A stretch of DNA of 64,000 nucleotides from Hyphomicrobiales bacterium (GTDB lineage: Bacteria > Pseudomonadota > Alphaproteobacteria > Rhizobiales > RI-29): positions 372,001-436,000 of the forward strand of contig WGLQ01000007.1 in the NCBI GenBank assembly GCA_016125495.1, in the 5' to 3' direction. Made by a program: the position numbers and the translations under genes. This document shows, piece by piece, positions 40,189 through 61,845 of the stretch; position 1 is the stretch's first letter; the number at the start of each line of letters is the position of its first letter. Below the pieces are notes generated by a model, which did no database searches, was not told where the DNA came from, and worked only from the letters and a program-made list of their open reading frames with translations.

Positions 40189-40236
40189 GTGAGGCTTTGC
40201 AATGAGTTATCTCACCGCGTGCGCTCGGTCTGTGGC

Positions 40237-41109: not shown

Positions 41110-41212
41110 CCCCCGCCCAATTCCTCACCGCTGGGCTTGGAACACAGCCATATGTGGGAAGGACCGCGAAGAGGCCGCCTACTTCAGATTGACCGCGTCA
41201 TTCGCTGTCTCT

Positions 41213-41758: not shown

Positions 41759-42032
41759 AAAGGGAACTCGGTTCAGTGTACTCAGAGCGGGCGAGCGAGC
41801 ACAAGCTCCCTATGCGGGAAAGGCCAAGACGCCAACTCTGGTAGCTGACGCAGCTCAAGTGGCGGTGAAGTGTTGAGATGTGGAGATTGCGGACAATCGC
41901 TCGGGCTGTGCCGTTGTGGCCCCTCTGTTCTTGATCGGAACGCGATACCTTCAACAGCGGACTCCCTGTAGTCTGGTAATCGTCGGCGTCATGAAATCAA
42001 TCGCGGAGCATGCCAAGGTGCGGCGCCGACGT

Positions 42033-45192: not shown

Positions 45193-45235
45193 TATGTGTT
45201 GCCCCACAATGGCAGAGGTAGCTTGCCATCGTGGA

Positions 45236-45910: not shown

Positions 45911-47075
45911 CCGTTACGTTCTCCTCAAGCTCGATCTGGTCAATCAGCTCGCGCACCTCTACGCGGCGCATCCTTAGCAGCTCCGCTAGCTGTCCTTCCG
46001 ACATGATGCCACGCTTCCAGGCGGCGTGCGCCATGAGGCTCATTCTGTGGGAGACTGGCCGGTTTGCGTCGCTCTTGGCCACATCGAGCCGTTCGGCGGC
46101 GTCTCCCAGCACTTCGCGCGCGTGGTAGTCTTTGATCCCGCCCTTCGTCTTGAGCCATTCCCACGTGCCTTTCTTCAGTAGCTCCAACTCTTCGAGCCGG
46201 CGGACGCAAGCTTCGCGGGAGATGTTATACTGGTGAGCCAGTAGGATGACGTGCCGACGGTTGAGCATGTCCGCGCCGGCCGTCAGCTGTTTGAAACTCT
46301 CCGAGAAGCTCTTGCGCGGCGTCACGAAGGCGCGGCCGAAGGCATTCGCATACCGTTCGTCCCGCGAGAGGAACTGCTCGTCATCCTCCAGAACCTCGGG
46401 CACCCGGCGCGTCCCGACGAAATGCCCGATTTCATGGGCGGCGGACTGGACGCGCCGCTCTAAGCGATGATTTGCATTCAGGAGCATGCAGGCACCGACT
46501 GCGTCATCGTACGTAAACAAGCCGGCAACCTTCGACTTGGAGGATAGTCGTCTCTGGTATAGGCGGATGCCGAGATCAAACTCGATGATCGAGAAAATGT
46601 TGCCGATTGGACCGCCGCCCAAACCAAGCCAGTTACGCAGCTCTTGCGCATGGTTCTCGCCAAGCTCGACAACATCGCCCTCGTTGATGCCTTTCTCCGG
46701 CGGATAGTACCGCCGCCGCTCGATGCCGAGGACGTTTTCGAGTTCCACCTCTGCTTTCACCAGGTCATTGAGAAGCTCGATGGCTTCCAGGGCGTGGTCG
46801 TCTTCGGTCTCCCGCATCTTGCGGAATCGCGGCACTAGATCGGTATGGACGGCTTCCCGACGCAGGAGCGCGTTAACGGAAACGCCGTAGTGCCGGGCGA
46901 GCAGCTGCAATTCCTGTATGCGAACACGCCGCATGCCTTTTTCAATGGAGACGAGGGTCGGGCGCGACATGCCGATGACCTCTGCCGCCTGATCCTGACG
47001 GATGTTCGCATTCTCCCGTGCAAGACGCAGGCGCCGACCGATTTCCTGCGCGCTCAATTCATTCAGATCGGCCAT
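45885..47075 (-). CDS. XRE-family regulator with ImmA/IrrE metallopeptidase domain
   Basis: A 396-aa protein. An N-terminal XRE helix-turn-helix (about 8-65; RQDQAAEVIGMSRPTLVSIE) is followed by an ImmA/IrrE zincin with HEIGHF (about 212) and a distal Glu region. The C-terminal part (about 270-390) carries further helix-turn-helix-like repeats. Such proteins act as antitoxins and cleave or inhibit regulators. The start has AGGGAGG. It overlaps the QueC-like gene by 17 bases and the PIN gene by 26, so the regulator and its likely toxin are made together. It is the best candidate to bind the TGACA/TGTCA boxes before the operon. Confidence 0.88.
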   Translation of the reverse strand: MADLNELSAQEIGRRLRLARENANIRQDQAAEVIGMSRPTLVSIEKGMRRVRIQELQLLARHYGVSVNALLRREAVHTDLVPRFRKMRETEDDHALEAIELLNDLVKAEVELENVLGIERRRYYPPEKGINEGDVVELGENHAQELRNWLGLGGGPIGNIFSIIEFDLGIRLYQRRLSSKSKVAGLFTYDDAVGACMLLNANHRLERRVQSAAHEIGHFVGTRRVPEVLEDDEQFLSRDERYANAFGRAFVTPRKSFSESFKQLTAGADMLNRRHVILLAHQYNISREACVRRLEELELLKKGTWEWLKTKGGIKDYHAREVLGDAAERLDVAKSDANRPVSHRMSLMAHAAWKRGIMSEGQLAELLRMRRVEVRELIDQIELEENVTDDLLKLPG

Positions 47076-48450
47076 GACGCCCTCCCTTTGTCCAGCTTCT
47101 GAGGAAGCTTTGTTCTCCCTGGGCGGCCATGAAGGCGCGCCATTCCGCTGCGTGCGTCAGCAACATGTTTCTGAGCTTTTTCAAGACGTCGTCCTGTGGT
47201 TCGCTCGTCGCGCGCGCGATCTCGAAGGCATGAACCTTCAATTCTGCATCGGGCAGATCCGCCATATCGGCAAGCTGCTGGAGGTGCCGCGAACCGACGC
47301 TACCGTACTCGGCCATCGATCGGCTCAGGCGAACTTTCTTCCTGCCGGGAAGGGCATCCCGAAACGACGGTACCGTCAGATCGGCGATGACGTAGGTGCC
47401 GGTCGGCTCGTCTATCCCGGCGGCGTGCATGCTCATCCGTCGAAGTAGACAGGCGGCGCACAAACCGCACTGCCGAAGCTTGCCGTCCATCTTCGCGTTC
47501 CAGCGCTGCTGCCAGCACGAACGGGTCTCGAAGAGTTCATCGACCGCCCTGTTGTTGGCGAGCCGAAAGGCCGCAATCGTTTCGCCCTTCGTGTTCCAAA
47601 GGCGCGGCTGGTCATAACGGACTTGATGATTAAGCAACGCCTTGATGAACCGCTCCATCTTGCGGAAGTACGTCGGATGATTGCGATAGTCGGCATAGAC
47701 GTTGTGCAAGGGCAGGAGCACCGGACCGAGTGCACCCTGACCGCTTTCGGGAACGACAATTCTGGTCAGCCCCGTCAGCTGGGCGGCAATTGCCGTCACG
47801 GCGGCAAACTTGAAGCCACGAGATCGCACAGTGCTTTCCCGCGAGGAGGGGACGTCGACACGAAAGGGGATCTGGTCGAACGGCTCGTCGCCCTCCTTCA
47901 GGGGATGGCGATGTTTGGTGACGCGGACGCAAACAGCGGCGGGCCCGTTTCCCGGCAGCTTGGAGACGCAGCGGGAGTCCAGCCCGTCGCTATAAGCGAT
48001 CACGAAGCTCCGCTCCGTCCCGAATGGGAGCGACCGTTGCCGCGCGCCGAGAATGCTTTCCCCCTGCCAGGGAACAAAGGAGAAATGCCACTCGTCGCCG
48101 GTCAGATGTCGCAGCGCCGACCAAAGGCTGGCTTGCACCTCGGGCTGTTGCCACCTTGCTACTTCGACGACAGGCACCGTGATGTCGAAATCGCGTGCCC
48201 ATCGGTTGATTCGCCTTGCGGCGCGGCGATCCGCATATTCAACGGCAGCGCTGACGACGAACAGATCGTGGTGGATCGGTTTCCAGCCGTCGTAGTTGTA
48301 CGCGTCCAGAGCATCCGGGACGAAGGTGATTTCCCGACCGATTTCAGCGATCATCGTGGAGTCGGGCAGGCATCGCCCATATCGATGGCCCGCCTCGACG
48401 ACGCGCAACCTGAGGCCATGGCGCTCGGGACTGGTCACATCAGCCTTCAC
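47059..48450 (-). CDS. QueC-like PP-loop ATPase of immunity type
   Basis: A 463-aa protein, twice the size of housekeeping QueC (about 230 aa). An N-terminal domain of about 145 residues (DGWKPIHHDLFVVSAAVEYAD, RWARDFDITVPV, HLTGDEWHFSF, in shortened form) is followed by a PP-loop of the QueC type, SDGLDSR (about 153-159). The second Gly of SGGLDS is replaced by Asp. A zinc site follows: Cys near 311, then CGLCAACLLRR (about 326). Related QueC-like proteins are parts of Qat and type IV CBASS immunity. It begins with GTG overlapping the upstream stop by 4 bases. Confidence 0.8.
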   Translation of the reverse strand: MKADVTSPERHGLRLRVVEAGHRYGRCLPDSTMIAEIGREITFVPDALDAYNYDGWKPIHHDLFVVSAAVEYADRRAARRINRWARDFDITVPVVEVARWQQPEVQASLWSALRHLTGDEWHFSFVPWQGESILGARQRSLPFGTERSFVIAYSDGLDSRCVSKLPGNGPAAVCVRVTKHRHPLKEGDEPFDQIPFRVDVPSSRESTVRSRGFKFAAVTAIAAQLTGLTRIVVPESGQGALGPVLLPLHNVYADYRNHPTYFRKMERFIKALLNHQVRYDQPRLWNTKGETIAAFRLANNRAVDELFETRSCWQQRWNAKMDGKLRQCGLCAACLLRRMSMHAAGIDEPTGTYVIADLTVPSFRDALPGRKKVRLSRSMAEYGSVGSRHLQQLADMADLPDAELKVHAFEIARATSEPQDDVLKKLRNMLLTHAAEWRAFMAAQGEQSFLRSWTKGGRHGRSE

Positions 48451-49025
48451 AATCGAACCATCCCGTCATCGACACCGTCGCTCTTGCCGACGTCATTCTC
48501 GAAGGCGTCCTGCCGACCTTCAATCAGCGCTTCGCGGACCCTCTCGCAGTCCACGGCGTCGAAGGCGGCATCCACTTTTCCACGCGCCGTTTCCGCTGCA
48601 TCCCGGCTCATCTCGCCGTCTTCCTGTGCCCGGATGTATTCCTCATGGAATCGGTTTCGCGTTTCACTGATCTGCGAAGCGATGGCGGCGTCGAGCGCGG
48701 ACACAATGGCATCGCTGAGTGCCATATCGTTGGCCGTCCGGTACGCCAACTCTTTCTGAAGCGCGTCGAGGAACGGCGTCTTCTCGCAACGATCGAAAAT
48801 GGCCTCGATAGACCCCAAAGGATCGAGCTCAAGCTGTCTCTGACCGAGATGTGCCTCGATCTCTTGCAGCGCTCTGACGTGTTCTTTGTTGATGAGGTGG
48901 CGGGTCAGCGCATCTGACGCAACGGCGCTGCATTCGTCAGGTGATGCCGCGTCGTTTTGCACCGCTTCAGCCAACCGCTTCCAGCAGCTCCCGAGTCTCA
49001 AATTTTTGAACGGACCATCGGTCAT
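48447..49025 (-). CDS. Unrecognised 192-aa helical protein, first gene of the defence operon
   Basis: A 192-aa, mostly alpha-helical, acidic protein with the sequence start MTDGPFKNLRLGSCWKRLAE and heptad-like stretches (residues 40-130). No family is recognised. It does not resemble QatB or any CD-NTase. The ATG at 49025 has GGAGG 5 bases before it, better than an ATG four codons upstream. Its stop overlaps the QueC-like GTG start, so the two are made in fixed ratio. It may be a partner or a substrate of that enzyme (inference). Confidence 0.75.
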   Translation of the reverse strand: MTDGPFKNLRLGSCWKRLAEAVQNDAASPDECSAVASDALTRHLINKEHVRALQEIEAHLGQRQLELDPLGSIEAIFDRCEKTPFLDALQKELAYRTANDMALSDAIVSALDAAIASQISETRNRFHEEYIRAQEDGEMSRDAAETARGKVDAAFDAVDCERVREALIEGRQDAFENDVGKSDGVDDGMVRL

Positions 49026-49047
49026 GGCGGCCTCCATGGCACGTGCA

Positions 49048-49095
49048 TGACATAAATACCTGACATTGTCAAGGTTTGCGTAAGAATTTCTGACA
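49048..49095 (-). promoter_or_regulatory. TGACA/TGTCA boxes at the defence-operon promoter
   Basis: TGACA lies at 49048-49052, TGACA-T-TGTCA at 49061-49071 (a perfect 11-bp palindrome) and TGACA at 49091-49095. The palindrome overlaps TTGACA (49072-49067 on the minus strand), a -35-like element. No good -10 follows. Palindrome size fits an XRE-type operator, so the operon may be repressed by its own third gene. Confidence 0.5.
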
Positions 49096-49267
49096 GCCCG
49101 GAGGGAGACAGTCTCTTTATGCTGTTTGTTGACGCGGCGAGGCCACCGGCGCTTCCGGACCACATCGCAAGGCGGACATCTGAACCAGCTTGACCAGTAT
49201 CGAGACGCGCTAATCAGCATGTCTCCTTTTGGGATTTCTCAACCCCCATCACCGTCATCGTCGCCCC

Positions 49268-50878
49268 CTACCGCGGCCGAGGCCGTCGCTTTCGGCCGCC
49301 CGTTCGGGCACCCGTCTTGCCACGATTGCGCTCGCGCTCGGCGCGTTCGGCCATCTTTGCCTTGGCGCGCTCGGCGACGTCTCGGGCGTGCTGTTCCGGA
49401 TCGCGCTTGACGAAGGGCAGCCGGTTCTCCGTCGTCCGGGCGGCGGTTCCGGGTCCCTCTGGTGATTTCGCGGCGCCCCACGGAATGGGCTTCATCTCGA
49501 TCGGCTCGTTCATCTTGCGCCGGTCGTCGGCGGCCTGGCGCCAGTCGCGGGCCTCCTCGATGTCGTAGCGCGCCGAGATCACAGTGCCGAAGAGGGGCGG
49601 TTTCAGCTTGCCCATGTCCCACCGGTCCCGGCGGGCGCGCCAATCACGCGTGTCGCTGTCGCGGTAGGTCTTGCAGCGTTTTTCATCCAGCCAGTTCTGC
49701 CAGGCGTGGATGCGCTCCATCTTCTTGAAGGCCCGCTTACGCTCGGTGATGGTCTCGGCCCGGCGGATGTCACGCTCCTTGCGAATCTCGGTCTTGATCC
49801 TCTCCAGCTTGGCGATGTCGGTCCGGTTGGCGATGCGCGCGACAATGCCGTGGAGCGCACCGCGCACGGCCCCGAACATGACGTCGAGGAGCGAGGCGGG
49901 ACGCTTCTCCCGCCCTGCCTTGGCGATGACTGCCTCGCCCTTCAGGACTTTCAGCGTCCGTTCGATCCGCGCCAGCGTCTTGCCGTTGGCTCGCTCGTGG
50001 TTGAGATCGATGTCGGCGAACTTGCGGGCGGTGACGCGTTTGTGCTGCTCATAGTCGCGCCTCTGGCGCTCGGCCCGGGCGGCGCGCACGTCTGCGAGAT
50101 TGGCGCTGCCGTGCTCGTTCCAGAAGGCGATCTCGGAGGGCGGCAGGCCGGTGTTCTTGACGTAGCCGGTCGCCTTGACGGGCTCGCCCCTCGCACGCGC
50201 CGTCCGCTTGACCTCGGCATTGTCGCGCCGGGTCTCCCGGTTCGGCTCACGGGCCGGACAGACCACCTTGCCGTGGCGCCGCTCCCAGTCGAGCGCCCAG
50301 TCCGAGAGCTTGAGCCGATCGTTGGCGAGCGACGCGAACTTGCCGGTCCTCGGATGCACCCGGTTGATGATCAAGTGCACGTGCGGGTGCTTCGTGTCGG
50401 TGTGCTCGACGATGAGGCACTGGTGCTCGCCGAGCCCGAGCACACCGCGGACCTCGTCGGCTGCCTTCAGCATGTTGGCCTTGGTGGCGTGGGGATCGCC
50501 CGGCGGGAACGAGAGGGAGAGGGAATAGACAGGCTTGGTTCCCTTGCGCCCGCGGAACGGATTGGCCGCCTTGACGTAGGCGTCATAGCTCATGCCGGCG
50601 GCCCTGGCGGCAGCCGTAACGGCCGCAACGCGGATTTCGTGGGCGTGCGCGGCCGTGAACGCCATCTGGCGGAGTGCCGCCATCGGATCGCTGCCGGTAC
50701 AGTTGCGGGTGGCGGTGAAGCCGACCCGCTCGGCGGTCTGGGCGGGGCCCTTGTCGGAGAGGAAGTACTCGGCCGCCGTCTGCCGCTTCGCCTCCGCCGC
50801 GTCCTCGCACTTGTCGTGCATGTAGTACATGCCGGCGCCGACGAACCCGGTGCCGAGCTTGGCGATACGGGGGATCAT
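49268..50878 (-). CDS. MOBP-type relaxase
   Basis: A 536-aa relaxase. The N-terminal region has AKLGTGFVGAGMYYMHDK. The conserved motif III HTDTKHPHVHLIINRV (about 153-168) carries the metal-binding His residues. The C-terminal half is a long basic coiled region, as in MobA/VirD2-like proteins. It nicks one DNA strand at oriT for transfer. The start overlaps the MobC-like gene by 4 bases. No primase domain is visible. Confidence 0.88.
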   Translation of the reverse strand: MIPRIAKLGTGFVGAGMYYMHDKCEDAAEAKRQTAAEYFLSDKGPAQTAERVGFTATRNCTGSDPMAALRQMAFTAAHAHEIRVAAVTAAARAAGMSYDAYVKAANPFRGRKGTKPVYSLSLSFPPGDPHATKANMLKAADEVRGVLGLGEHQCLIVEHTDTKHPHVHLIINRVHPRTGKFASLANDRLKLSDWALDWERRHGKVVCPAREPNRETRRDNAEVKRTARARGEPVKATGYVKNTGLPPSEIAFWNEHGSANLADVRAARAERQRRDYEQHKRVTARKFADIDLNHERANGKTLARIERTLKVLKGEAVIAKAGREKRPASLLDVMFGAVRGALHGIVARIANRTDIAKLERIKTEIRKERDIRRAETITERKRAFKKMERIHAWQNWLDEKRCKTYRDSDTRDWRARRDRWDMGKLKPPLFGTVISARYDIEEARDWRQAADDRRKMNEPIEMKPIPWGAAKSPEGPGTAARTTENRLPFVKRDPEQHARDVAERAKAKMAERAERERNRGKTGARTGGRKRRPRPR

Positions 50879-51384
50879 GCCGAGAGCACCTTGGCAACGA
50901 CGGCATCGAAGGTGGCGATCATGCCCCGCGCCCTGGCGGTCATCCGGCCCGAGGCCTCCAACTGCTCCCCGATCGCCACCAGGCGCTCGCGATACACGCC
51001 GAGTTCGTCCGCGAGCCGGCTTGCGATGATCAGACGGTCGAGCTGAGTCTCCAGGCGCACGCAGACGGCATCGAGGCCTTGGGGCACGACACCCGTCTCA
51101 CCGGCGATGAACCTCAGCCGCGCCAGGTCATCGCCGATGCGGGCGAGCGCATCGACGGTCGCGAAATCCGGGGCCCGGGCGGCCCCGATCCCAGCACGGG
51201 CCCCCGTCGCGCAGAGGACCTCGCGGGCATAGTCGTTCGACGAGAGCCCCGCCTCGGCGGCATTGACGAGGAAGGCCGCCTTCTGGACCTTGGTGACACC
51301 GAAGGAAATACGCTCCGTGCGCCGTTGCTCGGGGGCAACCGACGGTCGTCCGGTTTTCGATTTCGATCCTCCAGTGTCACTCAT
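50875..51384 (-). CDS. MobC-like relaxosome protein
   Basis: A 169-aa protein with a ribbon-helix-helix-like part (TERISFGVTKVQKAAFLVNA, AAEAGLSSNDYAREVL) and a helical C-terminus. The pattern matches plasmid mobilisation proteins that load the relaxase on oriT. It directly precedes and overlaps the relaxase gene. The ATG at 51384 is chosen. A GTG two codons upstream is possible. Confidence 0.8.
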   Translation of the reverse strand: MSDTGGSKSKTGRPSVAPEQRRTERISFGVTKVQKAAFLVNAAEAGLSSNDYAREVLCATGARAGIGAARAPDFATVDALARIGDDLARLRFIAGETGVVPQGLDAVCVRLETQLDRLIIASRLADELGVYRERLVAIGEQLEASGRMTARARGMIATFDAVVAKVLSA

Positions 51385-51854
51385 TGTCACTCGTTTGCAC
51401 CGCCACGCTTACCCACAAACACATCCGCCACGGTGTGACATCACACCGTGGTTGCCGGTTCGCCACAGATGCAGACGGGTTACGGGCCCGAATGCCACAC
51501 TGTGGCATCGCCTCGGATCACTGCATCCGTTCTGAACCGGTGCACGCCGCCAGCCTGAGCTGGGTTGAATTGACCCCCTCGGGGGTCAAGAAGGGGGTGG
51601 CGCCAGACCCCCTTCAACAGTTTTTCGGCACGAAAAACATATCTTGCTATTCCGTAGCCCAAAACGCCCACGAGACATAACCCATTTCCAGAACCGATCG
51701 CAAGCATTTTTCGCGACTGGAGCAAACCCGACGCATTTACGCAGTATTACGCTACGGTGCATGAATTCGAACTGCGGCGCAATAATGCGCATAATGGAGA
51801 GTAACAGCGAAAATCAGTGGAAAGAGACGGGGCGAATGAATGCCGCGCACCGGT
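51385..51854. other. Hairpin-rich intergenic region, candidate oriT
   Basis: Four inverted repeats lie upstream of the mobC-relaxase pair: 51428-51451 (11-bp arms, 2-bp centre, CCACGGTGTGA), 51492-51508 (8-bp arms, ATGCCACA), 51571-51588 (8-bp arms, TGACCCCC) and 51590-51615 (9-bp arms, GAAGGGGGT). No gene is supportable. oriT sites usually sit at this place and contain such hairpins, but the nick site is not identified. Confidence 0.6.
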
Positions 51855-52157
51855 TCAGAGCTGATCCAGGGGATCGCTCTTCCAGTCCTCGCGGCCATGG
51901 CGCACGCGCACGATCAGGACCTCGTCCTGCTCATTGGTGAGGTAGATGATGACGTGCACGCCCTGTGGATGGATGCGATAGGCGGGGGTGTATTCGGGGC
52001 GCTCGTTGGCGATCCGGGGAAAGTCGGCAATGAGTTCGAACGCGCGGGCCATCGAACCGAGGTAGCGCTCGGCCTGGGCCGAGCCGAACCGCATCGCGCC
52101 GTCGACATAGATATCGATCAAGTCCTGTTCGGCCGCGTTGGTGAGACGGTAGCCCAT
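51855..52157 (-). CDS. parE: ParE/RelE-superfamily toxin
   Basis: A 100-aa toxin of the ParE type. It opens YRLTNAAEQDLIDIYVDGA and has the middle ANERPEYTPAYRIHPQG region and the closing VLIVRVRHGREDW, all characteristic of this family, which poisons gyrase. Its start overlaps the stop of the upstream antitoxin gene by one or more bases. It probably stabilises the element by addiction. Confidence 0.92.
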   Translation of the reverse strand: MGYRLTNAAEQDLIDIYVDGAMRFGSAQAERYLGSMARAFELIADFPRIANERPEYTPAYRIHPQGVHVIIYLTNEQDEVLIVRVRHGREDWKSDPLDQL

Positions 52158-52414
52158 CAGCCCCGCGGATCGCCGGCCGCCGCCACCTTCCGACGCGCGA
52201 TCTCGCGGATGTCATCGATCGTGTGCTCGGAGACGCCGCTCGCAAGGCCTTCGTCCAGCAGCTGCTGGAGCTGTGCGATATTTGCGACCCGCTCCTGATC
52301 CTGGCGGATCAGGTCGCGCACGTAGTCGCTCGCATTGGCGTAGCGACCGGTTCGGGTCTGCGCCGTCACCCAGTCCTTCATCGGATCGGGCAGCGAAATG
52401 TTCATGCTGGCCAT
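52157..52414 (-). CDS. parD: ParD-type antitoxin
   Basis: An 85-aa protein with an N-terminal ribbon-helix-helix (MASMNISLPDPMKDWVTAQT, then GRYANASDYVRDLIR) and a helical C-terminus, the ParD/CopG architecture. The start at 52414 follows GGAGG by 5 bases. It neutralises the overlapping ParE toxin and represses the operon. Confidence 0.92.
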   Translation of the reverse strand: MASMNISLPDPMKDWVTAQTRTGRYANASDYVRDLIRQDQERVANIAQLQQLLDEGLASGVSEHTIDDIREIARRKVAAAGDPRG

Positions 52415-52436
52415 GGCGTCCTCCATGGTCTCATGA

Positions 52437-52451
52437 TGGCATAGATTGCCA
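52437..52451 (-). promoter_or_regulatory. Inverted repeat upstream of parDE
   Basis: TGGCA-TAGAT-TGCCA, 23 bp before the parD start. TTGACA lies just beyond it on the minus strand (52462-52457), but no -10 at proper spacing is seen. It is a plausible ParD operator. Confidence 0.4.
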
Positions 52452-52547
52452 AAGTTTGTCAATTTTGGGGAGGCCGTGCGGCGCCAGCTTGGTGCACGGA
52501 CGATCGACATAGCGAGCAGCCCGTTCGGAGACGGGCTGCAGCGCGTG

Positions 52548-52778
52548 TCATAGGTCGTCCAGATGGTCGTCGACCGTCTCCCAGGTGATGCCCAGGGTTG
52601 CGTCGTGATTTGCGTCCATCCGCTCGATGATCCGGACGGCGGTCGCATCGCTGACCGCGAGCCCGCGCGCCTCGGCACGCGAGCGCACGTCGGCGAGCTG
52701 CCAGAGGGCAACGGCGATGCGCGCATCCGGATCGAAGTTGCGCTCCAGATGCGCGATGAGGTCTCTCACGCTGGTCAT
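52548..52778 (-). CDS. Hypothetical protein (small-gene operon, fifth gene)
   Basis: A 76-aa acidic protein (MTSVRDLIAHLERNFDPDAR, then VALWQLADVRSRAEARG and DANHDATLGITWETVDDHL in part) with no recognised family. Its start overlaps the preceding gene by 4 bases (ATGA). It closes a leftward operon of five small genes from 54103 to 52548, all overlapping by 4-7 bases. Confidence 0.6.
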   Translation of the reverse strand: MTSVRDLIAHLERNFDPDARIAVALWQLADVRSRAEARGLAVSDATAVRIIERMDANHDATLGITWETVDDHLDDL

Positions 52779-53014
52779 GACGCACCTCCTTGGCCAGGAG
52801 GCCCGAGCCGGTGCACGGCGAGGATGACCTCGACGAGCTGGCTGGCGAGCTTCAGCCGGTCCCGCATGGGCAGGATCGTGCCGATCGCGAGGTTGCGGTT
52901 GCGCTCGACCGTCATCGCCTCGATGGCGAGCGTCGCCTCGTGGCTGAGCCCGAGGAGCTGATCATCGAGCACGCGCAAATGATGCAGGATGGCGCTGTCT
53001 GTTGCATTCAGCAT
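52775..53014 (-). CDS. Hypothetical protein (small-gene operon, fourth gene)
   Basis: A 79-aa helical protein (SAILHHLRVLDDQLLGLSHE) of unknown family. It overlaps its neighbours by 7 bases upstream and 4 downstream, which supports it as a real gene translated by coupling. Confidence 0.6.
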   Translation of the reverse strand: MLNATDSAILHHLRVLDDQLLGLSHEATLAIEAMTVERNRNLAIGTILPMRDRLKLASQLVEVILAVHRLGPPGQGGAS

Positions 53015-53253
53015 GACGCACCTCCAATTACCGGCACGACCCGGAATTCATCCGCGCTGTAGCCTTCATCCGCTGCACGAATGCCGCATGCGATCTCATC
53101 AGCGATCTCGGTGAGAAACTCATCGAGGGCCGTTTGCGCCGCACGGCGCGTTGCGAAACGTTCGGGCTCATCGTCGACGAACCACGTGTTGATCCAGCCG
53201 TCACAGAGCGTGAAGGTCTGGACCTCCCAGGCGATGGGCTTGCGTTGTCTCAT
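53008..53253 (-). CDS. Hypothetical protein (small-gene operon, third gene)
   Basis: An 81-aa protein (KPIAWEVQTFTLCDGWINTW and FVDDEPERFATRRAAQTAL in part) that looks like a small regulator or antirestriction-like protein, but no family is recognised. The start at 53253 overlaps the methyltransferase stop by 4 bases. A longer frame upstream is a shadow. Confidence 0.55.
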   Translation of the reverse strand: MRQRKPIAWEVQTFTLCDGWINTWFVDDEPERFATRRAAQTALDEFLTEIADEIACGIRAADEGYSADEFRVVPVIGGASC

Positions 53254-53876
53254 GACGCACCTCCCGCGCGGTGTGGCGCCGTCGAGAGCCAGTGGAACGT
53301 CGTCGTCACTTTGGGGGTTTGTTCCCAGACCATCCAGCAGTAGCGATGCCGGCGGGTGTAGGGCCCCGCAAGATCGGGATCGCCGTTCGGATAGCAGACA
53401 CAGTCGTCGAGGGCGTAAATCCGCGCCGGCGGCCGCGCCACGTACGAATAGTGCCGCACCGGATCGCAGAGGCTCGCAAGGTTGAGGAGCATCGCGACTT
53501 TCCCGCCGGTCCGCGCGGTGAGGCTGAGGGCCTTGCGGATGAACCGGTCGGCGAGCCCCGCGCCGTAGGGCGGGTTGGTGACGATGTGTTTCGCCCTCGG
53601 CACCTCGAGCCCGAGGAAGTCGAGGCCCGGCTCGCCATAGCCGTAGTCGGCGATGTCGGTTGCAACGACGTCGTAGCCGGCAGCGATGCATTCTCGGGCG
53701 ATGGCGCCGTTGCCGCAGGCGGGCTCCCAGATGGAGCCGTCGAAGCGCTCGGCGGCAAGGAAGGTTCTCGTTGCCTCGGGCGGTGTCGGATAATATTCCC
53801 GCGGTGCGCGCCAGGGCGAGAGGCGCCAGCCCGGGGTTGTCCCCGGGCCTTGGCTGTTGGTGATGTCGGGGATCAT
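53250..53876 (-). CDS. DNA-methyltransferase-like protein (NPPY)
   Basis: A 208-aa SAM-dependent methyltransferase. It starts YYPTPPEATRTFLAAERF, has motif I IWEPACGNGAIARECI (about 49) and catalytic motif IV HIVTNPPYGAGLADRF (about 98). The N6-adenine/N4-cytosine class carries NPPY. It is clearly paralogous to the 208-aa protein at 62249-62875 in the second element, with aligned motifs over the full length. It overlaps its neighbours by 4 bases each. Confidence 0.85.
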   Translation of the reverse strand: MIPDITNSQGPGTTPGWRLSPWRAPREYYPTPPEATRTFLAAERFDGSIWEPACGNGAIARECIAAGYDVVATDIADYGYGEPGLDFLGLEVPRAKHIVTNPPYGAGLADRFIRKALSLTARTGGKVAMLLNLASLCDPVRHYSYVARPPARIYALDDCVCYPNGDPDLAGPYTRRHRYCWMVWEQTPKVTTTFHWLSTAPHRAGGAS

Positions 53877-54103
53877 GCGAACCCCCGATCTTCCGCGGCG
53901 ACCGGATCGAGGAAGAGAACGCCCTTGGCGAAATTCTGCGGCACGATGTCGAGCTTGAGGATGGCGCCCTTGCCGGCCTCGCGGCGCGGCCAGACGGCGC
54001 CGATCTCGACGACGCGGCCGAGCCGGTCTTTTCCCTCCGGGTCTGTTCCGATGACAGGGGCGAACTTGGCCCGGTAGATCGGTTTCTGTTTGCTGTTACT
54101 CAT
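53873..54103 (-). CDS. Hypothetical protein (small-gene operon, first gene)
   Basis: A 76-aa protein (KPIYRAKFAPVIGTDPEGKD) with no recognised family. It has a good ribosome binding site (AAGGAAACCATC) and leads the five-gene operon of small proteins and the methyltransferase. Such operons are common on mobilisable plasmids. Confidence 0.6.
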   Translation of the reverse strand: MSNSKQKPIYRAKFAPVIGTDPEGKDRLGRVVEIGAVWPRREAGKGAILKLDIVPQNFAKGVLFLDPVAAEDRGFA

Positions 54104-54566
54104 GATGGTTTCCTTTCGTTATGGGCTGCTCCATTGCAGCCATGACCATCACCGGCACGGCGCAAAGCGCGAGCGGAACCGATGTCCGTCAGGACGAGGC
54201 GGCCGGCGCAGCCGAGTCCGACCCCAACGGGGTTGCAGCGAGTGCGGGCCGTGCGATGGTCGGATCAGGCTGCAATCGATGCGGCAGCCCATCGAGAAGG
54301 AAAACATGCGTAACGCCGCGCAAACAAACGCGATCACGCGCCGCCCAAGGGCGATCGACATTGAAGGAGAGGGTAATGACCAGTAACGGCCCTCGGGCCA
54401 CGACGTGGCGCAGTCGTGCGAGACGCCAGAAATGCCGCAAGTTGACGAGCCGATGAGCGATGACGCCTGAAGTGCAGGAGAACAATCCGCGCGTTCTTTG
54501 CGGCAGTGCACGCAATGACGAGTTGCTAGATCGGCCATGCCGTACCTGGCCGGGGCAAGCCCCCCC
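54104..54566. other. Gene-free stretch before the integrase gene
   Basis: About 460 bp between the small-gene operon and the integrase stop. I find no supportable gene or strong repeat. Confidence 0.4.
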
Positions 54567-55736
54567 TCAGTCCTTCCGGCGCATTGTACCGACGATGGCA
54601 TTGCTGACGGTGTCGGAGAGTTCCTTGATCGGGTCGGCGACGAGATGGGCGTAGCGCTGCGTCGTGAGGCTGGAGGAGTGGCCGAGCAGCTTGCCGATCA
54701 TCGGCAAGGAGGCACCGTTGGCGGCAGCGATGCTGGCAAAGGAATGCCGCAGGTCGTGGATCCGGACATCCTCTATCCCGGCGCCCGCGCGGATGCGATG
54801 CCAGGCCTTCTGCAGGTTGACGAGATGTGCGCCGGCTCGTTCGCCGACGACGACATGGGGATTGTCGGGCTGTCGAGGCAATGCGGCGAGCAGCGCACGC
54901 GCTTGGCCACCAAGATAGACGACTTTCTGTCCCGTCTTGCTGTCGGGAAGGAGGAAAAGACCGCGTTCGAGATCGACGTGCTGCCACTGCAGCGTGAGGA
55001 TTTCGGAGAGGCGGCAGCCGGTGAGCAGGAGGAGGCGGATGGCGGCGATGACGGCGGGGCGCTCGGCACCTGCGGCCTCCAGCGCATCGAGGTGGGCCCC
55101 AAGTCGCTGCAGCTCTGCCTCGGAGAGATATCGCTGGCGCTGCACCTCGCGGAATTTCTTGACCGCGGGGCAGGGGTTGGAGCGCACGGGCCGCAGATGC
55201 CGACCTTCGGCCCAGGTCATGATCGTCGAGAGGACCGCGAGGGCATAGTTGGCGGTCCGCGGTCTGCTGGCCAATCCGACGTGAAAGGCGGCAACGTCGC
55301 TCGTTGTTATATCGGCGAGATGACGGCGGGCGAACGCCGGCTTGAGACAGACATCGATCAATCGCTTGTAGTCGGCGCGTGTGCTCTCTTTGAGCTTGGG
55401 TGCGTGTTCGGCAAGGTAGAGATCGGCGGCCTCGGCAAAGAGCGGAGCGGCCCTGGCCGCGGCCTTGGCCTGACCGGGATCGAGCCCCTCGTTGATCTTG
55501 GTGATGAGCCGCAGCGCCTCCTTGCGGGCACTGGCGGGCGTCCAGGGCGAGCCGTGCGTGCCGATGGTGATGAAGCGCAGGCGCCCCTTGACCCGGGTCT
55601 GCAGGTAGTAGGTCGGCGCTGCAGCGGAGCGGCGGCGAGCGCCGAACCCCATGATCTCGGTGTCGCGCAAAGTGTCGCCCGGCTGGAGCGAATCGACGGT
55701 GCTGGTGTTGACGCGGGCGCGCAGCTGACGGGGCAT
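54567..55736 (-). CDS. int: Tyrosine recombinase integrase
   Basis: A 389-aa phage-type integrase. An N-terminal DUF4102-like/arm-binding part (TEIMGFGARRR, YYLQTRVKGR) is followed by a core-binding domain and a catalytic domain with Arg in TGCRLSEIL (about 242), HDLRHSFAS (about 327-330), GHSSSLTTQ and the nucleophile Tyr in RYAHL (about 361). The start at 55736 is near the right attachment site, with the arm-type repeats between. It most likely integrates and excises the element at tRNA-Lys. No excisionase gene is recognised in this element. Confidence 0.94.
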   Translation of the reverse strand: MPRQLRARVNTSTVDSLQPGDTLRDTEIMGFGARRRSAAAPTYYLQTRVKGRLRFITIGTHGSPWTPASARKEALRLITKINEGLDPGQAKAAARAAPLFAEAADLYLAEHAPKLKESTRADYKRLIDVCLKPAFARRHLADITTSDVAAFHVGLASRPRTANYALAVLSTIMTWAEGRHLRPVRSNPCPAVKKFREVQRQRYLSEAELQRLGAHLDALEAAGAERPAVIAAIRLLLLTGCRLSEILTLQWQHVDLERGLFLLPDSKTGQKVVYLGGQARALLAALPRQPDNPHVVVGERAGAHLVNLQKAWHRIRAGAGIEDVRIHDLRHSFASIAAANGASLPMIGKLLGHSSSLTTQRYAHLVADPIKELSDTVSNAIVGTMRRKD

Positions 55737-55762
55737 AATCAGATGTCCTGACGGTTGCAAAC

Positions 55763-55786
55763 GGGCTAACACGGGGCTAACATTTT
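55763..55786 (+). repeat. Integrase arm-type sites, right end
   Basis: GGGCTAACACGGGGCTAACA at 55763-55782, followed by TTTTT, is two adjacent copies of the GGGCTAACA unit seen at 31815-31834 in the left end, in the same orientation. It lies between the integrase start and attR. Together the sites form a candidate attP arm set. Confidence 0.7.
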
Positions 55787-55886
55787 TCTTCGCAAGCGAG
55801 CAAGTCCCTGTCGGAAGTCGCCTTCGGATTCGTTGAATTTGTTGGATCTTTCGAACCCCTGACGGTGCCTGGCGGATACATAAGCT

Positions 55887-55938
55887 TGACTTTTAATCAG
55901 ATGGTCGTGGGTTCGATCCCCACCCCGCTCACCAATGA
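55887..55938 (+). repeat. attR, right copy of the 52-bp direct repeat
   Basis: Identical to 31718-31769. It contains only the tRNA-Lys 3' part and no 5' half, so it is not a gene. It also marks the left limit of the second element. Confidence 0.97.
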
Positions 55939-56132: not shown

Positions 56133-57902
56133 TCACCCAAGCAACATGCCGAGGTCGTCGGCGATGAAGGGCACCTGGATGAGGCGGCGGCGGCCGTCGC
56201 CGAGGTCGGCATAGAAGCATCCGGCCGGAAAGTCGGCGGGGCGGATGTCCTCCAGCTCCTGGGCATCGCCGAAGACGTTGGCGATGGCGGCGCGCTCGTA
56301 GACCCGTCCAACCAACCGCGCACCCATGTTGAACCGGATGACCGAGGGCACGGCGTCGGCGTGCGGGCGTTGCGTGGCGGCGATCATCTTGACCCGCGCC
56401 GCCCGACCCTTCATGAGCACGCTCGCCATGTCGGCGATCAACTGAGCGTTCTCGGCCTTGGCTTCGCGCGTTGCCAGCGGCACGTGGGTGATCGTTGCCA
56501 CCTCGTCGAACACCACCATGATGGTCTTGCCCGGATAGCGCTTCTGGCGGGCGGCCCGAGCCTCGCGGTAACGCGCGGCGATGGTGGCGTTCAGCTCCTG
56601 AAAGAGCCGTGGCAATTCCTCATATTCGGTGACGAGGCGCACGTTGGGGAGCTGGCCTTCGAGCCCCCCGAACTCGCCCCCGTGCTTGAGGTCCACCAGA
56701 ACGATCGTCTCATAGTGGGCGATGTTGTGGAGCATGCCGGCGATGAGCACGTTGAGGAGATTGGATTTGCCGGACCCGGTTTGCCCCGCGATGAATGTCG
56801 AGGGATGGTCCGCGACATCGAGCCAGGCATCGCTGTCGTCATCGCGGCAGCGGCCGACATAGAGCCGGCCGTCCTGAAACTGTTCGGCCCCGAACACGGT
56901 GTCCTGCGCACCGCCCCTCGTAGGGGCTTTTCCCGCGCGGACGTCGATGAGCACGATGCGGTCCGCACGCGCGGGATCGGCCGCAACCTCGACCGGCCGC
57001 CCCATGATCCGGGAGGCCTCGTCGAGATGGCGCTGCCAGAGTTTCACATCGGCGGTGATGCCGCCGAGCCGGAGCATCGGATAACGGCACGCATCGGCCG
57101 CCTCGACATCGAGGCGGTAATTGTTGAAGGCGCCATTGCCATCCATGGCTGCGAGATGGAGGGGCAGGGCCACCCAGTCGTCGAGCGCGATACCGAGCCG
57201 CACGAAGCAGGCGTGCGCCCGGATGCCTTGGCGGCGCATCTCGGAGGTGAGGGGAATCGCCGGATGGGGCAAACCCTCGTGCCAGCGCATGCCGGCGAAC
57301 GGGGTATCGAGGCACTGGGGCGGATAGTCATCCAGTTGCACGAGGCGCTGTGTCGCGCCGGTGTCCGGATCGACCAGATGCTGCTCGAAGCGCGTCGGAT
57401 GATAGAGCGGAGCGAGGCCGAAGGCCCCGACGGGCAGCAGAAGCCGGTTGAGCGTGGCGCTCGGGTGGCCGGCGTGCCAGCCGAACCCGCGCCAGTTGGC
57501 CTCGAAGTCCACCGCAGCAAGATCGGGATGAAGTCCGGCGGTGCGGAGACGCCTCCAGAAGACCTCCGCCTGGGCACGCACCCCGGCGTCCTCGGCCATC
57601 CAGCGCTCGGCCTGGGCGAGGGCATTGGCAACGTCCGCCGCATCCCCGGCGAGGTCGGACGGCAAATAGCGGTCCGCCCCGGTCTCGGCGGCGCGCCAGA
57701 GCAATTGCGCCCGCCGCTCGCCATCGCTGCGCCCGGGCGGCCGCATCTGGCGCAGGTTACGGGTCCGCTCGCTCTCGCTCCGCCAGTTGGCCACCGCTGA
57801 TCCGATGCTCGCTCCGATGGCCTCGCCGATCCGGCTGCTCACCGGGAAGCGCTTCTTGTTGCGCTCCTCGATCGTTTCCATGAGCGTCGTGAAGACTGAC
57901 AT
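56133..57902 (-). CDS. FtsK/SpoIIIE-like DNA translocase
   Basis: A 589-aa P-loop ATPase. The FtsK-type core is at about 365-540: Walker A IAGQTGSGKSNLL (about 370), IVLVDLKHGGEF, Walker B MVVFDEVA (about 464) and the KMIAATQRPHADAVP sensor. The N-terminal 360 residues are unassigned. FtsK-like translocases pump DNA in Gram-positive style conjugation or chromosome segregation. In this element it could move rolling-circle DNA. It is the last gene of a leftward set beginning with Rep. Confidence 0.85.
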   Translation of the reverse strand: MSVFTTLMETIEERNKKRFPVSSRIGEAIGASIGSAVANWRSESERTRNLRQMRPPGRSDGERRAQLLWRAAETGADRYLPSDLAGDAADVANALAQAERWMAEDAGVRAQAEVFWRRLRTAGLHPDLAAVDFEANWRGFGWHAGHPSATLNRLLLPVGAFGLAPLYHPTRFEQHLVDPDTGATQRLVQLDDYPPQCLDTPFAGMRWHEGLPHPAIPLTSEMRRQGIRAHACFVRLGIALDDWVALPLHLAAMDGNGAFNNYRLDVEAADACRYPMLRLGGITADVKLWQRHLDEASRIMGRPVEVAADPARADRIVLIDVRAGKAPTRGGAQDTVFGAEQFQDGRLYVGRCRDDDSDAWLDVADHPSTFIAGQTGSGKSNLLNVLIAGMLHNIAHYETIVLVDLKHGGEFGGLEGQLPNVRLVTEYEELPRLFQELNATIAARYREARAARQKRYPGKTIMVVFDEVATITHVPLATREAKAENAQLIADMASVLMKGRAARVKMIAATQRPHADAVPSVIRFNMGARLVGRVYERAAIANVFGDAQELEDIRPADFPAGCFYADLGDGRRRLIQVPFIADDLGMLLG

Positions 57903-57915
57903 CGCTTTATTCCCC

Positions 57916-58929
57916 TCAGAGGTTCACGAGGCCGCGTGGACGCTCTGGGGCACGGTTGGTGTGGGGGGCATGGGGTGCTCGCCCGCCGCCGCCTTCGTGG
58001 GGGCAATCGCCGCCACTCGGGCAACGCTGCCCGGCACCGAGAAGACCCCCATCGAACGGAGCGCCGCCTCCGGCCCCGAAGCCGCCGCCCGTGGGCTGCC
58101 ATTCACCGTCGCCGTGACCGGCTCGAGGGGCAGCGCGGATCAACCGGCGGTAAAGGACGAGCGCAAAAAGGTTGGCCAGCTCGCACAGCGTCGTGAAGAC
58201 GATGCCAATGCCGATCTGCACTCGCTCGATGCTGGCGCCGAGCAGTTGAGCGAGGGCGAATGCGGCACCATCGGTAGGCGTTGCGTTGGCCAGGGCCCCG
58301 AGGCGATCCTCCAGCAGCGCGGCCCGCTGGCGCATGAGGTCCTCGTGGCGGCGGGCCGCCGCCAGCTCGATGCGCAGTTCGGCAACCTTGGCGCAGGTCT
58401 GAGGCCCATAGGTCTCGACCGTGGTGCAGCCATTGGTGTGGGCATCGACGGAACGGCCACCGACCCGGGTCTGCAGGAGGGCCGCGATCTCCGCCTCGAT
58501 CTCGGCCGGCGACCGCTCGGTCGTGCGCCGGGAGAGTTCGGCGTCCAACCGGGCCAGCTCGCGGGATTTCAGCTCCCCGGCCGTTGCCTGGTTGCGGGCG
58601 GCATCACTGCCGACCAAGCGGTGTGTGGTGGAGAACGCATAGCCCGCGCACCAGCTGTAGCCGATCATGAGGGCGCCGAGGACAACGAGACAGCCGAGAT
58701 AGGCCGGCCTGACCTCCTGGAAGGCCCGCAACCACATGAACGGCAGGTAGGCCTTCAGAATGTCGCTGCACATCGCAACGATGGCCAGGATAATGGCCAC
58801 CGGTACGATCGGCTGGCCGACCTCGAACCCGACGGCCATGTTCATGGCGATGGAGGTGATGGCGAGCAGGCCGACGGTCATGGTGTAGACCGTGCCCCGA
58901 AAGATCAGCTCCCAATTGGTGTTCGGCAT
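57916..58929 (-). CDS. Membrane/coiled-coil protein partnering the FtsK-like gene
   Basis: A 337-aa protein with three N-terminal membrane segments (VYTMTVGLLAITSIAM, VAIILAIVAMCSDIL, LGCLVVLGALMIGYSW), a helical coiled region (about 120-220), a fourth membrane helix (IGIGIVFTTLCELANLFALV) and a Gly-rich tail. No family recognised. It ends 14 bp before the FtsK-like gene, so the two are probably a membrane channel and its motor (inference). The start at 58929 has GGAG before it. Confidence 0.65.
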   Translation of the reverse strand: MPNTNWELIFRGTVYTMTVGLLAITSIAMNMAVGFEVGQPIVPVAIILAIVAMCSDILKAYLPFMWLRAFQEVRPAYLGCLVVLGALMIGYSWCAGYAFSTTHRLVGSDAARNQATAGELKSRELARLDAELSRRTTERSPAEIEAEIAALLQTRVGGRSVDAHTNGCTTVETYGPQTCAKVAELRIELAAARRHEDLMRQRAALLEDRLGALANATPTDGAAFALAQLLGASIERVQIGIGIVFTTLCELANLFALVLYRRLIRAAPRAGHGDGEWQPTGGGFGAGGGAPFDGGLLGAGQRCPSGGDCPHEGGGGRAPHAPHTNRAPERPRGLVNL

Positions 58930-58963
58930 GGTGCGCTCCATGGGGTTGGGATGGAGAGGGGGG

Positions 58964-59185
58964 CTAATGCCCCCTCATGGCATGGTCTGTGGTGCTCGAC
59001 CGGAGGCGGGTTTCCATCCAGGCCCGGAGATCGCTCAACCGGTAGAGCACCCGGGCCCGGGGGCCGTCGCCGAGCTTGCAGAACGGCGGTCCGCCACCGG
59101 TGATGCGCAGTTGTTCCAGGCTGCGCGGGCTGTAGCGCAGGAGGGCGGCGGCTTCTTTCGTCGTCAGATAACGGTCGTGATCCAT
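58964..59185 (-). CDS. Helix-turn-helix protein (AlpA/excisionase-like)
   Basis: A 73-aa winged-helix/MerR-like protein (YLTTKEAAALLRYSPRSLEQ, then FCKLGDGPRARVLYRLSDL in part). These domains are typical of excisionases and small regulators of mobile elements. The ATG at 59185 is chosen. It could direct excision of the second element. Confidence 0.8.
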   Translation of the reverse strand: MDHDRYLTTKEAAALLRYSPRSLEQLRITGGGPPFCKLGDGPRARVLYRLSDLRAWMETRLRSSTTDHAMRGH

Positions 59186-59349
59186 GGACGCACCTCGTCT
59201 CGGGTTGTTCCGTCTCTTTCTACTCTCTGACGCAATACGGGGGATCGTCCGGCCCATAAGCGGGCCGAAGCGCTGGTTTGGACGTGGCGATTGAAGGCCA
59301 CCATCGGAGATGACTGGGCACGCCGACGGAGGGCGCGACGTATCCGGGC

Positions 59350-59697
59350 TCAGACACCCATGGCGCGCTGGCCGGTGATGGCTTCGCGGTGCAGCTCCTG
59401 GAGCACCTCCGTCAACCGCTGATAGTCCAACTGCCGCAGGGCCTCCGGCCCGAGCGAGCGCATGAACAAGCGGCCATCCCGACTGGTGGAGACGGAGACC
59501 GGCAGCGTGACGAAATTGCCTTCCGACAGTCCCTCCAGGGGAAACTGATCATCGAGGAAGATGCTCGTCGGCGCGAGATGCGCGCCATCGCGCGCGACGT
59601 TGGCGAACTGGGCGCGGTAGTAGGGGCCACGCTTGCTCTCGCCGCGAATGAGGGCGAGGAGGCTGCCAGAGACCATATGGATCGTGGGATAGTGCAT
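59350..59697 (-). CDS. Hypothetical small protein of the second element
   Basis: A 115-aa protein (GSLLALIRGESKRGPYYRAQ, then FANVARDGAHL) with beta-rich character. A single-strand DNA-binding role would fit its place after a rolling-circle Rep, but no motif proves this. An AGGGAAAA lies before the ATG. Confidence 0.6.
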   Translation of the reverse strand: MHYPTIHMVSGSLLALIRGESKRGPYYRAQFANVARDGAHLAPTSIFLDDQFPLEGLSEGNFVTLPVSVSTSRDGRLFMRSLGPEALRQLDYQRLTEVLQELHREAITGQRAMGV

Positions 59698-59741
59698 GAC
59701 GGTTATTTTCCCTGTTGTGAACGCTTGTTGGATCGATTGGC

Positions 59742-60701
59742 TTACGCAAGAACCCGGTAGTCGCAGCGCGGTTCATCCCAGATGCGCACTAGCGCGGTGA
59801 TGAATGGCGCCAGGCGCGGATCGTGTATGTCGTCGAAATCCGGACTGCCGTCGTCGTCCGGGTCGGGGAGTTTGAGTTGTTGGCGTGCCTCGTAAAACAC
59901 CCCGGATAGACTCATCTTCCGGCGCCGCCGCAGCACGCCGAGCAGCGAGCGGACCGCCTCCGGGTTACAACGCCAGCCGGCGTTATCATCGCCGGAGTAA
60001 AGGTCCGTCGGCTTGAACGCATACTTGGCCACCTCGACCAGTGCCTGCCGGAGACCGTCCGGCCCATCATCCCGGGCGCCAATAGCTCCCATGTGGATTT
60101 GCGACACCGGCCGACCGACTTTGCGGCTCCAATCCGCCCTCAGCTGATCGGCGGTGACGTAGCGGCCGGCCTCCTTGGCGTAATAGCGGGGATGCAGCGC
60201 AACCAGGCAGTGGGCATGCGCATGCAGCAGGCCCGTGACGTCGTTCCGGGTCACCTCCAGGCAGCGGATGCTGCCGAGCACGGCGGCGCGGTAGGCGCTG
60301 TTGCGCATCGGCTGGGTCCAGCCCTTGGAGATGGCTCCGAGGGCCTGTCCAGTCTCGCCCGGTGTCGTGGCGCCGAACGTGAGGGTCCAGTGCTGGAACG
60401 GCGCATTGGGCTCCGTCTTGCGGACGTGATCCAGGATCGGCACCAGGACCGCGAGGTTGCGGGCAGCCCGCGCCGCCTGGCATTGGGGGCACAGCAGGTG
60501 TTTGCAGGAGTACCGGCCGGTGACGATTTCCTCGGCAATACCCCCCACGTCGAACACGTCGGTATCGAGCCGCGTCTGGCAATAGCCGACATTGTGTGCG
60601 GCCTTGGCTTCACCGATCTGGTCGAGTGCTAAGGACAGCGCCAAGGAGCGGCGCTTATTCTGCGTCAGGCGGTCGATTTTGTTGCGTCTGTTGTGCCTCA
60701 T
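59742..60701 (-). CDS. Rolling-circle replication initiator (Rep_1-like)
   Basis: A 319-aa HUH endonuclease. A Cys-His site CKHLLCPQCQ (about 64-73) precedes the HUH motif LLHAHAHCLVAL (about 156) and the Tyr motif VAKYAFKP (about 224). The layout matches Rep_1-family initiators of rolling-circle plasmids and phages. The ATG at 60701 has GGGGGA before it and is preferred to an ATG 25 codons upstream. It would nick a double-strand origin, probably in the region just upstream. Confidence 0.88.
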   Translation of the reverse strand: MRHNRRNKIDRLTQNKRRSLALSLALDQIGEAKAAHNVGYCQTRLDTDVFDVGGIAEEIVTGRYSCKHLLCPQCQAARAARNLAVLVPILDHVRKTEPNAPFQHWTLTFGATTPGETGQALGAISKGWTQPMRNSAYRAAVLGSIRCLEVTRNDVTGLLHAHAHCLVALHPRYYAKEAGRYVTADQLRADWSRKVGRPVSQIHMGAIGARDDGPDGLRQALVEVAKYAFKPTDLYSGDDNAGWRCNPEAVRSLLGVLRRRRKMSLSGVFYEARQQLKLPDPDDDGSPDFDDIHDPRLAPFITALVRIWDEPRCDYRVLA

Positions 60702-61845
60702 GTTGTCCCCCGTCTCTGCACTGGGCCGGTGACAGGGGAAATGACCGAGAATTTGGTTAATGTCGACTGACGTCATATGTCACGATGTTTCAGCCAGATC
60801 AGTGAGATAGGCTGTCGCAACGTCAGGCATTGTAGTACCTTCGCCAAGACAGTGAAGCCTGCGGAAAAATCGTGATTTCGGCTGGGGAACAGGCCCCGGA
60901 GTTGTGACCTGCATATCGCTGTGCGGTTGGTTGTTTTGCGCGTTGTATAACCATTTAGGGCTGGCGACACGCTGCGCAGGACTGTGGTCGGTGGTCGGCA
61001 TGTCACGTTATTTCTAAAGTATCAAGCCTATCGGATAGGGTCAGACTCTCTCCTTATGCCAACATGTCCCATCGATGATGATCTCTACTCTCCCGGGACC
61101 GCGATCTGTAACAGCCCCGCGGCATTATCCAGGTTGCAGACGCACCGCATTGCCCAATCATGCCGATGCCGTCCGTGGCAGCGCCGGATAACACCTCGGA
61201 GCGGCACCAGGGTGCCGCGATTGGCCAAGCGCAGGGTCAGGACGATGCCGCGCCATGCCGGCTCTCGGCGGCTGTCCCGACCCTCCCCTTGATACCCCGT
61301 CGTGCCGTGGGCGCGGATGGGGTCCGTCGCCTGCCCGTCCGCCTCAGCCGCTGAAGCGGCTTCGTCGTCCGCGCCGGCTGCCGGGTCCGCTCCTGCGTCG
61401 CCAGCCAGGCGATCCCATGGGGTGGCCCATACCGTGTGTCGAAGCCCGCATGGGGAGGTTCGCCGTCCCAAGCGCTTCGGTCTCCCGCCGGTCCAAGGTG
61501 GGCGCCACCGCAGCGCCAGCGGGCGCGGGCGCAGGACGGCGCCAGCCAGGATCGCGTGCAGCAGGGCGCTGTCCCCCGGCGCCGAGCCCGTCTCGTCCCC
61601 CGGTCGGCGCCAGGGCCATTTCCGGCTCCTCGTCCGGATGGGCCTCCCTCTTGGGTCTCGTCCGCCCCTCGCGTCCTCTCCATGTCGCCCATGCTGCACG
61701 CAACCCGCCGTCGCAAAAATCGTCTTCCGCCGCCGGGCGGTCTCCCGAGAAGAGATTTTTGCTCCGTCGGAACGACGTGCGGTTCGCATGGCGACGAGGA
61801 CGCAAGGGTTGCGGCCTCGCACAACCAAGAAGAAGGAAATATCCC
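60702..61845. other. Gene-free region with probable origin and promoters of the second element
   Basis: About 1.14 kb. Bases 60760-61085 are clearly more AT-rich than the surroundings and include the palindrome TGACGTCA (60768-60775), fitting an origin or promoter region between the Rep gene and the rightward genes. Bases 61090-61845 are very GC-rich with several shadow-like frames but no supportable gene. A short hairpin AGCCGC-TGAA-GCGGCT lies at 61346-61361. Confidence 0.5.

Follow-up and report, generated by a model that had tools for sequence, protein, structure and literature searches.

What do a rolling-circle initiator and an FtsK-like DNA motor do together in one gene set of an alphaproteobacterium? 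This question is raised by a locus in a 64,000-nucleotide stretch of contig WGLQ01000007.1 (hereafter the window) from a Hyphomicrobiales bacterium, whose genome contains GcrA (E 2e-50), as for an alphaproteobacterium. The gene set is the replication and DNA-motor core of a 35.2-kb integrative mobile element in tRNA-Lys, which we call island B. We read it as a rolling-circle replicon whose TcpA-like DNA pump is associated with the membrane and serves transfer of the element, and we put the probability of this reading at roughly 45%.

The four proteins described in a first-pass annotation of the window, namely a Rep, a helix-turn-helix protein, a four-helix membrane protein with a coiled region and an FtsK-like ATPase, were all found in place on the minus strand, in one leftward set. 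The gene list was nevertheless incomplete, as a fifth gene encoding a protein of 115 aa lies between rep and the helix-turn-helix gene, and the Rep end given as 60701 is an internal ATG in the same frame of the complete gene. The genes stand in the order rep, small protein, helix-turn-helix protein, membrane protein and ftsK-like (Table 1), and the short gaps between them (13, 22, 92 and 44 nt, counted from the ftsK-like end) make the five look like one operon. Third-position GC is high in the genes of the set.

The tRNA-Lys gene has its 3' end repeated at the left boundary of island B and at positions 463103-463150 of genome contig C7 (91103-91150 on the window scale), and these two copies are identical over 48 bp and lie 35,212 bp apart. 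The three copies of the tRNA end therefore indicate two islands in tandem. Island B, the second of the pair, occupies 55.9-91.2 kb on the window scale, mostly beyond the window, with the module at its left edge and the integrase at the opposite end, so that an excised circle would bring int, att and the ftsK-like gene side by side. It also carries a MobA/MobL relaxase and a VirD4-type coupling protein, and further cargo includes a type I restriction system region, a second initiator (Rep3) and ParA.

The Rep belongs to the Rep_1 family and its motifs are intact, with the HUH motif HAHAHC and a KY tyrosine; the HUH motif is intact in the Rep of all nine modules considered below. A putative nick site of the pC194/pUB110 type, CTTGATACTTTAGAAATAACGT, was located upstream of rep on the rep strand. 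Rep_1 plasmids of Listeria and Staphylococcus have CTTGATACATATAGAAATAAC and CTTGATACTATATAGAAATAAC upstream of rep, and CTTGATA is what we take to be the nick sequence of the pC194 family. In 100 shuffled versions of the window the gapped nick-site pattern had no match, and it has a single occurrence per whole genome in the host (G000, 4.05 Mb) and in genomes G074 and G191, each time beside the module rep; its reversed control had no match in these three genomes. A CTTGATA-type origin, as in pC194-type replicons, was found in the window and in the modules L029 and L030, and the pattern was not found near rep in five other modules checked (L032-L034, L040 and L092). The hairpin at the nick site was no better than in shuffled sequences. 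The module thus shares the Rep_1 family and the nick region CTTGATAC-AGAAATAAC with rolling-circle plasmids of the pC194/pUB110 family, but unlike them it is part of a chromosomal integrative element of 35 kb that has an FtsK-like motor and, as a second initiator, Rep3.

The 115-aa protein was the top match among the open reading frames of the window for a profile of eight syntenic homologues (E 1.2e-5), and its gene is therefore regarded as conserved. We propose that this beta-rich protein, whose fold is not reliably predicted (pLDDT 43), may be a single-stranded DNA-binding accessory; it had no detectable homology to YdcP, to the small protein of pKH9 or to the small proteins of actinomycete integrative and conjugative elements (AICEs).

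A survey of 397 genomes from the same order gave seven loci with a strong Rep_1 match (E below 1e-29), each with an FtsK-like gene nearby that in most cases comes after the small protein. Two more, L092 from Nitrobacter vulgaris and the record L040 from IMG/VR, bring the modules to nine. The conservation on which the first-pass annotation had staked its proposal holds for Rep, the small protein and the FtsK-like ATPase, which are adjacent in eight further alphaproteobacterial loci, but not for a constant membrane partner, since that protein has no homologue in the other eight modules. Homologues of the helix-turn-helix protein occur in the L032 and L033 modules. Rep_1 without FtsK was seen elsewhere, at L176 and L182. 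Five elements with drawn boundaries measure 22-36 kb and all sit in tRNA genes: besides island B, these are the elements of G316 (33.0 kb, tRNA-Gln), G199 (35.9 kb, tRNA-Arg), G074 (30.6 kb, tRNA-Arg) and Nitrobacter (22.4 kb, tRNA-Arg, with an 18-bp repeat). ParA is common to them, most have a RepA-like initiator, and a closely related integrase is common to G316, G199 and G074. In L029-L031 the module has an ArdA-like gene as neighbour, the L029 protein being just under the Pfam ArdA cut-off.

When the ATPase and the Rep of the window were each used alone to scan the viral sequences of IMG/VR, no relatives came up; an alignment-based scan returned mostly FtsK genes of Firmicute phages without Rep and one 16.5-kb record with the module (L040). 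Among the matches listed in a scan of genome contigs, ordinary FtsK/EssC proteins predominated, together with the Nitrobacter module. On plasmids of Sphingomonas, Agrobacterium and Rhizorhabdus the ATPase matched large FtsK-domain genes that do not represent the module, two of them adjoining phosphoadenosine phosphosulfate reductase genes (Dnd-like). Weak Rep_1 matches in the same order (L036, L038 and L039) were likewise set aside, as they look like tailless-phage-type (PM2-like) proviruses; their Rep_1-type proteins adjoin small FtsK-like packaging ATPases.

The membrane protein has hydropathy segments at residues 21-39, 44-62, 82-100 and 241-259, and its relatives (E down to 1e-21) were found in 51 of the 397 genomes. 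In 13 neighbourhoods that were fetched, the located relatives stand mostly beside conserved chromosomal genes, two being near plasmid- or mobilisation-type genes (L276 and L282). The protein of island B looks like a captured member of a host membrane protein family. Two relatives in the host genome itself (G000:C6:33555-34259 and G000:C34:19931-20641) have four transmembrane segments and a coiled region and no Pfam name. In other modules hydrophobic segments are found at the N-terminus of the ATPase itself (L029-L031), or a separate two-transmembrane protein is present (L032).

The nine module ATPases form one clade of their own (support 95/82, 100/98 and 99/98 in three samplings), which in three trees lies outside the clade of chromosomal segregation FtsK proteins; clustering with these would have refuted the first-pass proposal. 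The deep affiliation of this clade is not settled by the trees. A sister position to the chromosomal FtsK clade is not rejected (approximately unbiased (AU) test, p 0.076), nor is a clade with PM1-like phage proteins (p 0.21), and an AU p of 0.004 for the module with pCW3 TcpA is uninformative, since the constraint split pCW3 from its 53%-identical relative. Comparison with solved proteins points to TcpA. A profile of the module found pCW3 TcpA first (E 3e-29) and FtsK at 4.7e-24, the TcpA match being a single colinear stretch that includes the pre-RecA domain, and Foldseek with an AlphaFold model of the core (residues about 340-577) also placed pCW3 TcpA first, above FtsK, with no TraB structure among the structural matches. 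Moreover 214-245 residues follow Walker A in the module ATPases and 223-234 in TcpA-type proteins, against 319-345 in TraB and 319-350 in TraB and chromosomal FtsK together; the module ATPase is without the C-terminal gamma/winged-helix, DNA-reading domain of FtsK and TraB.

Firmicute integrative and mobilizable elements (IMEs) are known to pair relaxases of the rolling-circle replication type with TcpA (PMC5357655). Like these elements and the related integrative and conjugative elements (Tn916 with YdcP-FtsK-MobT-ArdA, pCW3 TcpA, the streptococcal IME classes), the module has an HUH protein of the rolling-circle type next to a short FtsK-like ATPase that has no gamma domain, and there is a tyrosine integrase, a tRNA-type site and, in some loci, an ArdA-like gene nearby; solved TcpA is also its best structural and profile match. 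It differs in its alphaproteobacterial host, its PF01446 Rep with a pC194-type origin, and a small protein not recognisable as YdcP. TcpA has been reported in Firmicutes only, and streptococcal TcpA IMEs are always without a canonical relaxase (PMC5357655), whereas here the rolling-circle initiator is not the sole relaxase, a MobA/MobL relaxase and VirD4 being present in the same element.

Transfer of the element is likely, and in our reading the FtsK-like motor would take part in it. After excision, Rep would nick the origin and the circle would replicate by rolling circle, with the small protein perhaps helping on single-stranded DNA. The ATPase may be kept at the membrane by the partner protein, or in relatives by its own N-terminal transmembrane helices, and its hexamer would drive element DNA processed by Rep towards the envelope. 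Its part in transfer would be that of a TcpA-like coupling motor, which would most probably use a type IV channel borrowed from a visiting conjugative element and work beside the element's own VirD4/MobL pair.

Several observations weigh against this account. The trees do not join the module ATPases with TcpA (AU p 0.059, borderline), and by profile score the closest of the groups compared is that of phage FtsK-like proteins, which cannot be conjugative. VirB4 was not found in the host, G176, G316 or G199, and was present in G074, G191 and G1097 (single Pfam model). The integrase of island B is frameshifted near its N-terminus as assembled, therefore its present mobility is uncertain, although the related integrase of the neighbouring island A (E 2e-96) might act in trans. 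Finally, since VirD4 and MobL are already resident, the second pump may have a different function. In view of this resident pair and the lack of VirB4 we weigh three roles, in falling order of probability TcpA-like coupling, an intracellular role and AICE-like transfer.

The intracellular role, a strong rival to transfer although we regard it as somewhat unlikely, would leave transfer to VirD4 and MobL. The FtsK-like motor and Rep would together replicate the excised circle by rolling circle, resolve it or segregate it, the motor moving the double-stranded circle to the membrane or into a daughter cell. A canonical relaxase together with VirD4 accompanies the module in island B, G074 and G316, and a canonical relaxase without nearby VirD4 in G199, all of which suits this explanation. 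It is also consistent with the most similar group being FtsK-like genes from phages of Firmicutes, PM1 among them, with a neighbour annotated as replication initiation protein, and with the small plasmids pKH9 and p5GD01, which have Rep and FtsK-like genes and are typed non-mobilizable. However, the module is also present in the Nitrobacter element and at the G176 locus, where no homologue of the other relaxases was seen, and the ATPase is without the C-terminal XerD-interacting, KOPS-reading domain used in dimer resolution.

Transfer of the AICE kind, with the ATPase and its membrane partner alone passing a double-stranded element to a neighbour as Streptomyces TraB does, seems improbable to us. 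The first-pass annotation had been reminded of actinobacterial transfer elements, and to the extent of the parts list and the tRNA integration this stands: the AICE-like loci L239 and L240 have Int, a helix-turn-helix/Xis protein, an HUH Rep, a multi-transmembrane protein, a small protein and FtsK, and AICEs and Streptomyces rolling-circle plasmids (pSAM2 and pIJ101, with TraB, Spd, Rep, Xis and Int) likewise combine an FtsK-type translocase with a rolling-circle Rep. One tree placed TraB as sister to the module (98/90), a pIJ101 TraB query ranked the Nitrobacter module ATPase (E 1.3e-15) before chromosomal FtsK, and the four genomes without VirB4 could be read in the same sense. The sisterhood with TraB disappeared, however, in the two other samplings, and the clt-reading C-terminal winged helix of TraB is missing, as are a Spd homologue and a conserved membrane partner. 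Island B has an integrase, frameshifted as assembled, and tRNA att sites as in AICEs, but its Rep is PF01446 and not RepSA, RepAM or Prim-Pol (the control L240 gave RepSA at 5e-99). The host envelope has two membranes and the host is non-mycelial. Small proteins of 106-134 aa near the FtsK gene in L239 (11347-11667) and L240 (10935-11339) are not detectably related to that of the window. The transfer by a single FtsK-like protein that had been envisaged is further called into question by MobA/MobL and VirD4 in the element and by TcpA, not TraB, being the best solved match. That alphaproteobacterial elements use a self-sufficient FtsK-type pump with a rolling-circle Rep to pass DNA between Gram-negative cells without a type IV secretion system is in our opinion quite doubtful. 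ICETh1 of Thermus offers a parallel in TdtA, an element-encoded hexamer of the FtsK/HerA superfamily that is thought to drive DNA out of a donor without such a system, and in its 47-bp tRNA repeats, but TdtA resembles HerA and has NurA as its partner instead of a rolling-circle Rep (PMC5365140). A TraB 99.8% identical to that of Streptomyces pIJ101 was seen on a 5284-bp Pseudomonas sp. SK2 plasmid (NZ_CP061945.1), a likely vector or contaminant.

That the module is a satellite or resembles a filamentous phage, with export driven by the ATPase, is very improbable: the succession of Rep, small protein, membrane protein and P-loop ATPase is reminiscent of inovirus gene order, but the window proteins gave no Zot or coat-family match in Pfam or PHROGs, the operon has no room for small coat genes, and neither the ATPase nor the Rep of the window had relatives in the single-protein IMG/VR scans.

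Island A (31.7-55.9 kb) is a separate tRNA-Lys element that ends with its own integrase; it has a MobA/VirD2-type relaxase and a NikA-like protein, and no Rep_1/FtsK module was noticed in it. The islands share homologous genes (53250-53876 in A, 62249-62875 in B) with a methylase-like signature YPTPPEATR...EPACG...NPPYG and no Pfam match, and a further homologue directly follows the ftsK-like gene in the G316 element. Small nucleotidyltransferase-like and HEPN-like genes at 75263-76308 of island B (window scale) are reminiscent of MNT/HEPN toxin-antitoxin pairs.

Table 1. Features of the module, of island B and of the neighbouring island A (positions on the window scale)
Feature	Position	Strand	Evidence or remark
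FtsK-like ATPase, 589 aa	56133..57902	-	PF01580, E 4e-10; Walker A near residue 373
Four-transmembrane protein, 341 aa, coiled region between segments 3 and 4	57916..58941	-	hydropathy; no Pfam name
HTH_17 protein, excisionase/regulator-like	58964..59257	-	HTH_17, E 4e-10
Small protein beside Rep, 115 aa, conserved	59350..59697	-	profile of syntenic homologues
Rolling-circle initiator Rep	59742..60776	-	PF01446 Rep_1, E 9e-30; HUH + Tyr
Putative double-strand origin nick site CTTGATACTTTAGAAATAACGT	61005..61026	-	pattern match, 250 nt upstream of rep
att site, 48 bp, tRNA-Lys 3' end, left boundary of island B	55891..55938	+	E 2.3e-18 in own genome
tRNA-Lys (TTT), target gene for both tandem islands	31691..31765	+	
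VirD4-type coupling protein, island B	76793..78097		PF02534, E 8e-69
MobA/MobL relaxase, island B	78144..79316		PF03389, E 4e-47
Integrase, island B	89780..90829		
Island A	31691..55938		
MobA/VirD2-type relaxase, island A	49268..50878		
NikA-like protein, island A	50875..51390		
Integrase, island A	54567..55772		

Transfer by TraB has been described as limited to multicellular Actinobacteria (PMC5704250) and AICEs as confined to Actinomycetales (PMC3218068), and according to a 2025 review every Gram-negative type IV secretion system has a coupling protein of the VirD4 type (PMC12857230). No description of a Rep_1 and FtsK-like module in Proteobacteria was found in a non-exhaustive search of the open-access literature. 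A conserved Rep and FtsK-like module that has a recognisable rolling-circle origin and belongs to tRNA-integrated elements of Alphaproteobacteria departs from the described confinement of FtsK-type transfer pumps to Actinobacteria and Firmicutes, and offers a compact means to test, in Gram-negative bacteria, whether a motor of this kind serves transfer, coupling or segregation of DNA.

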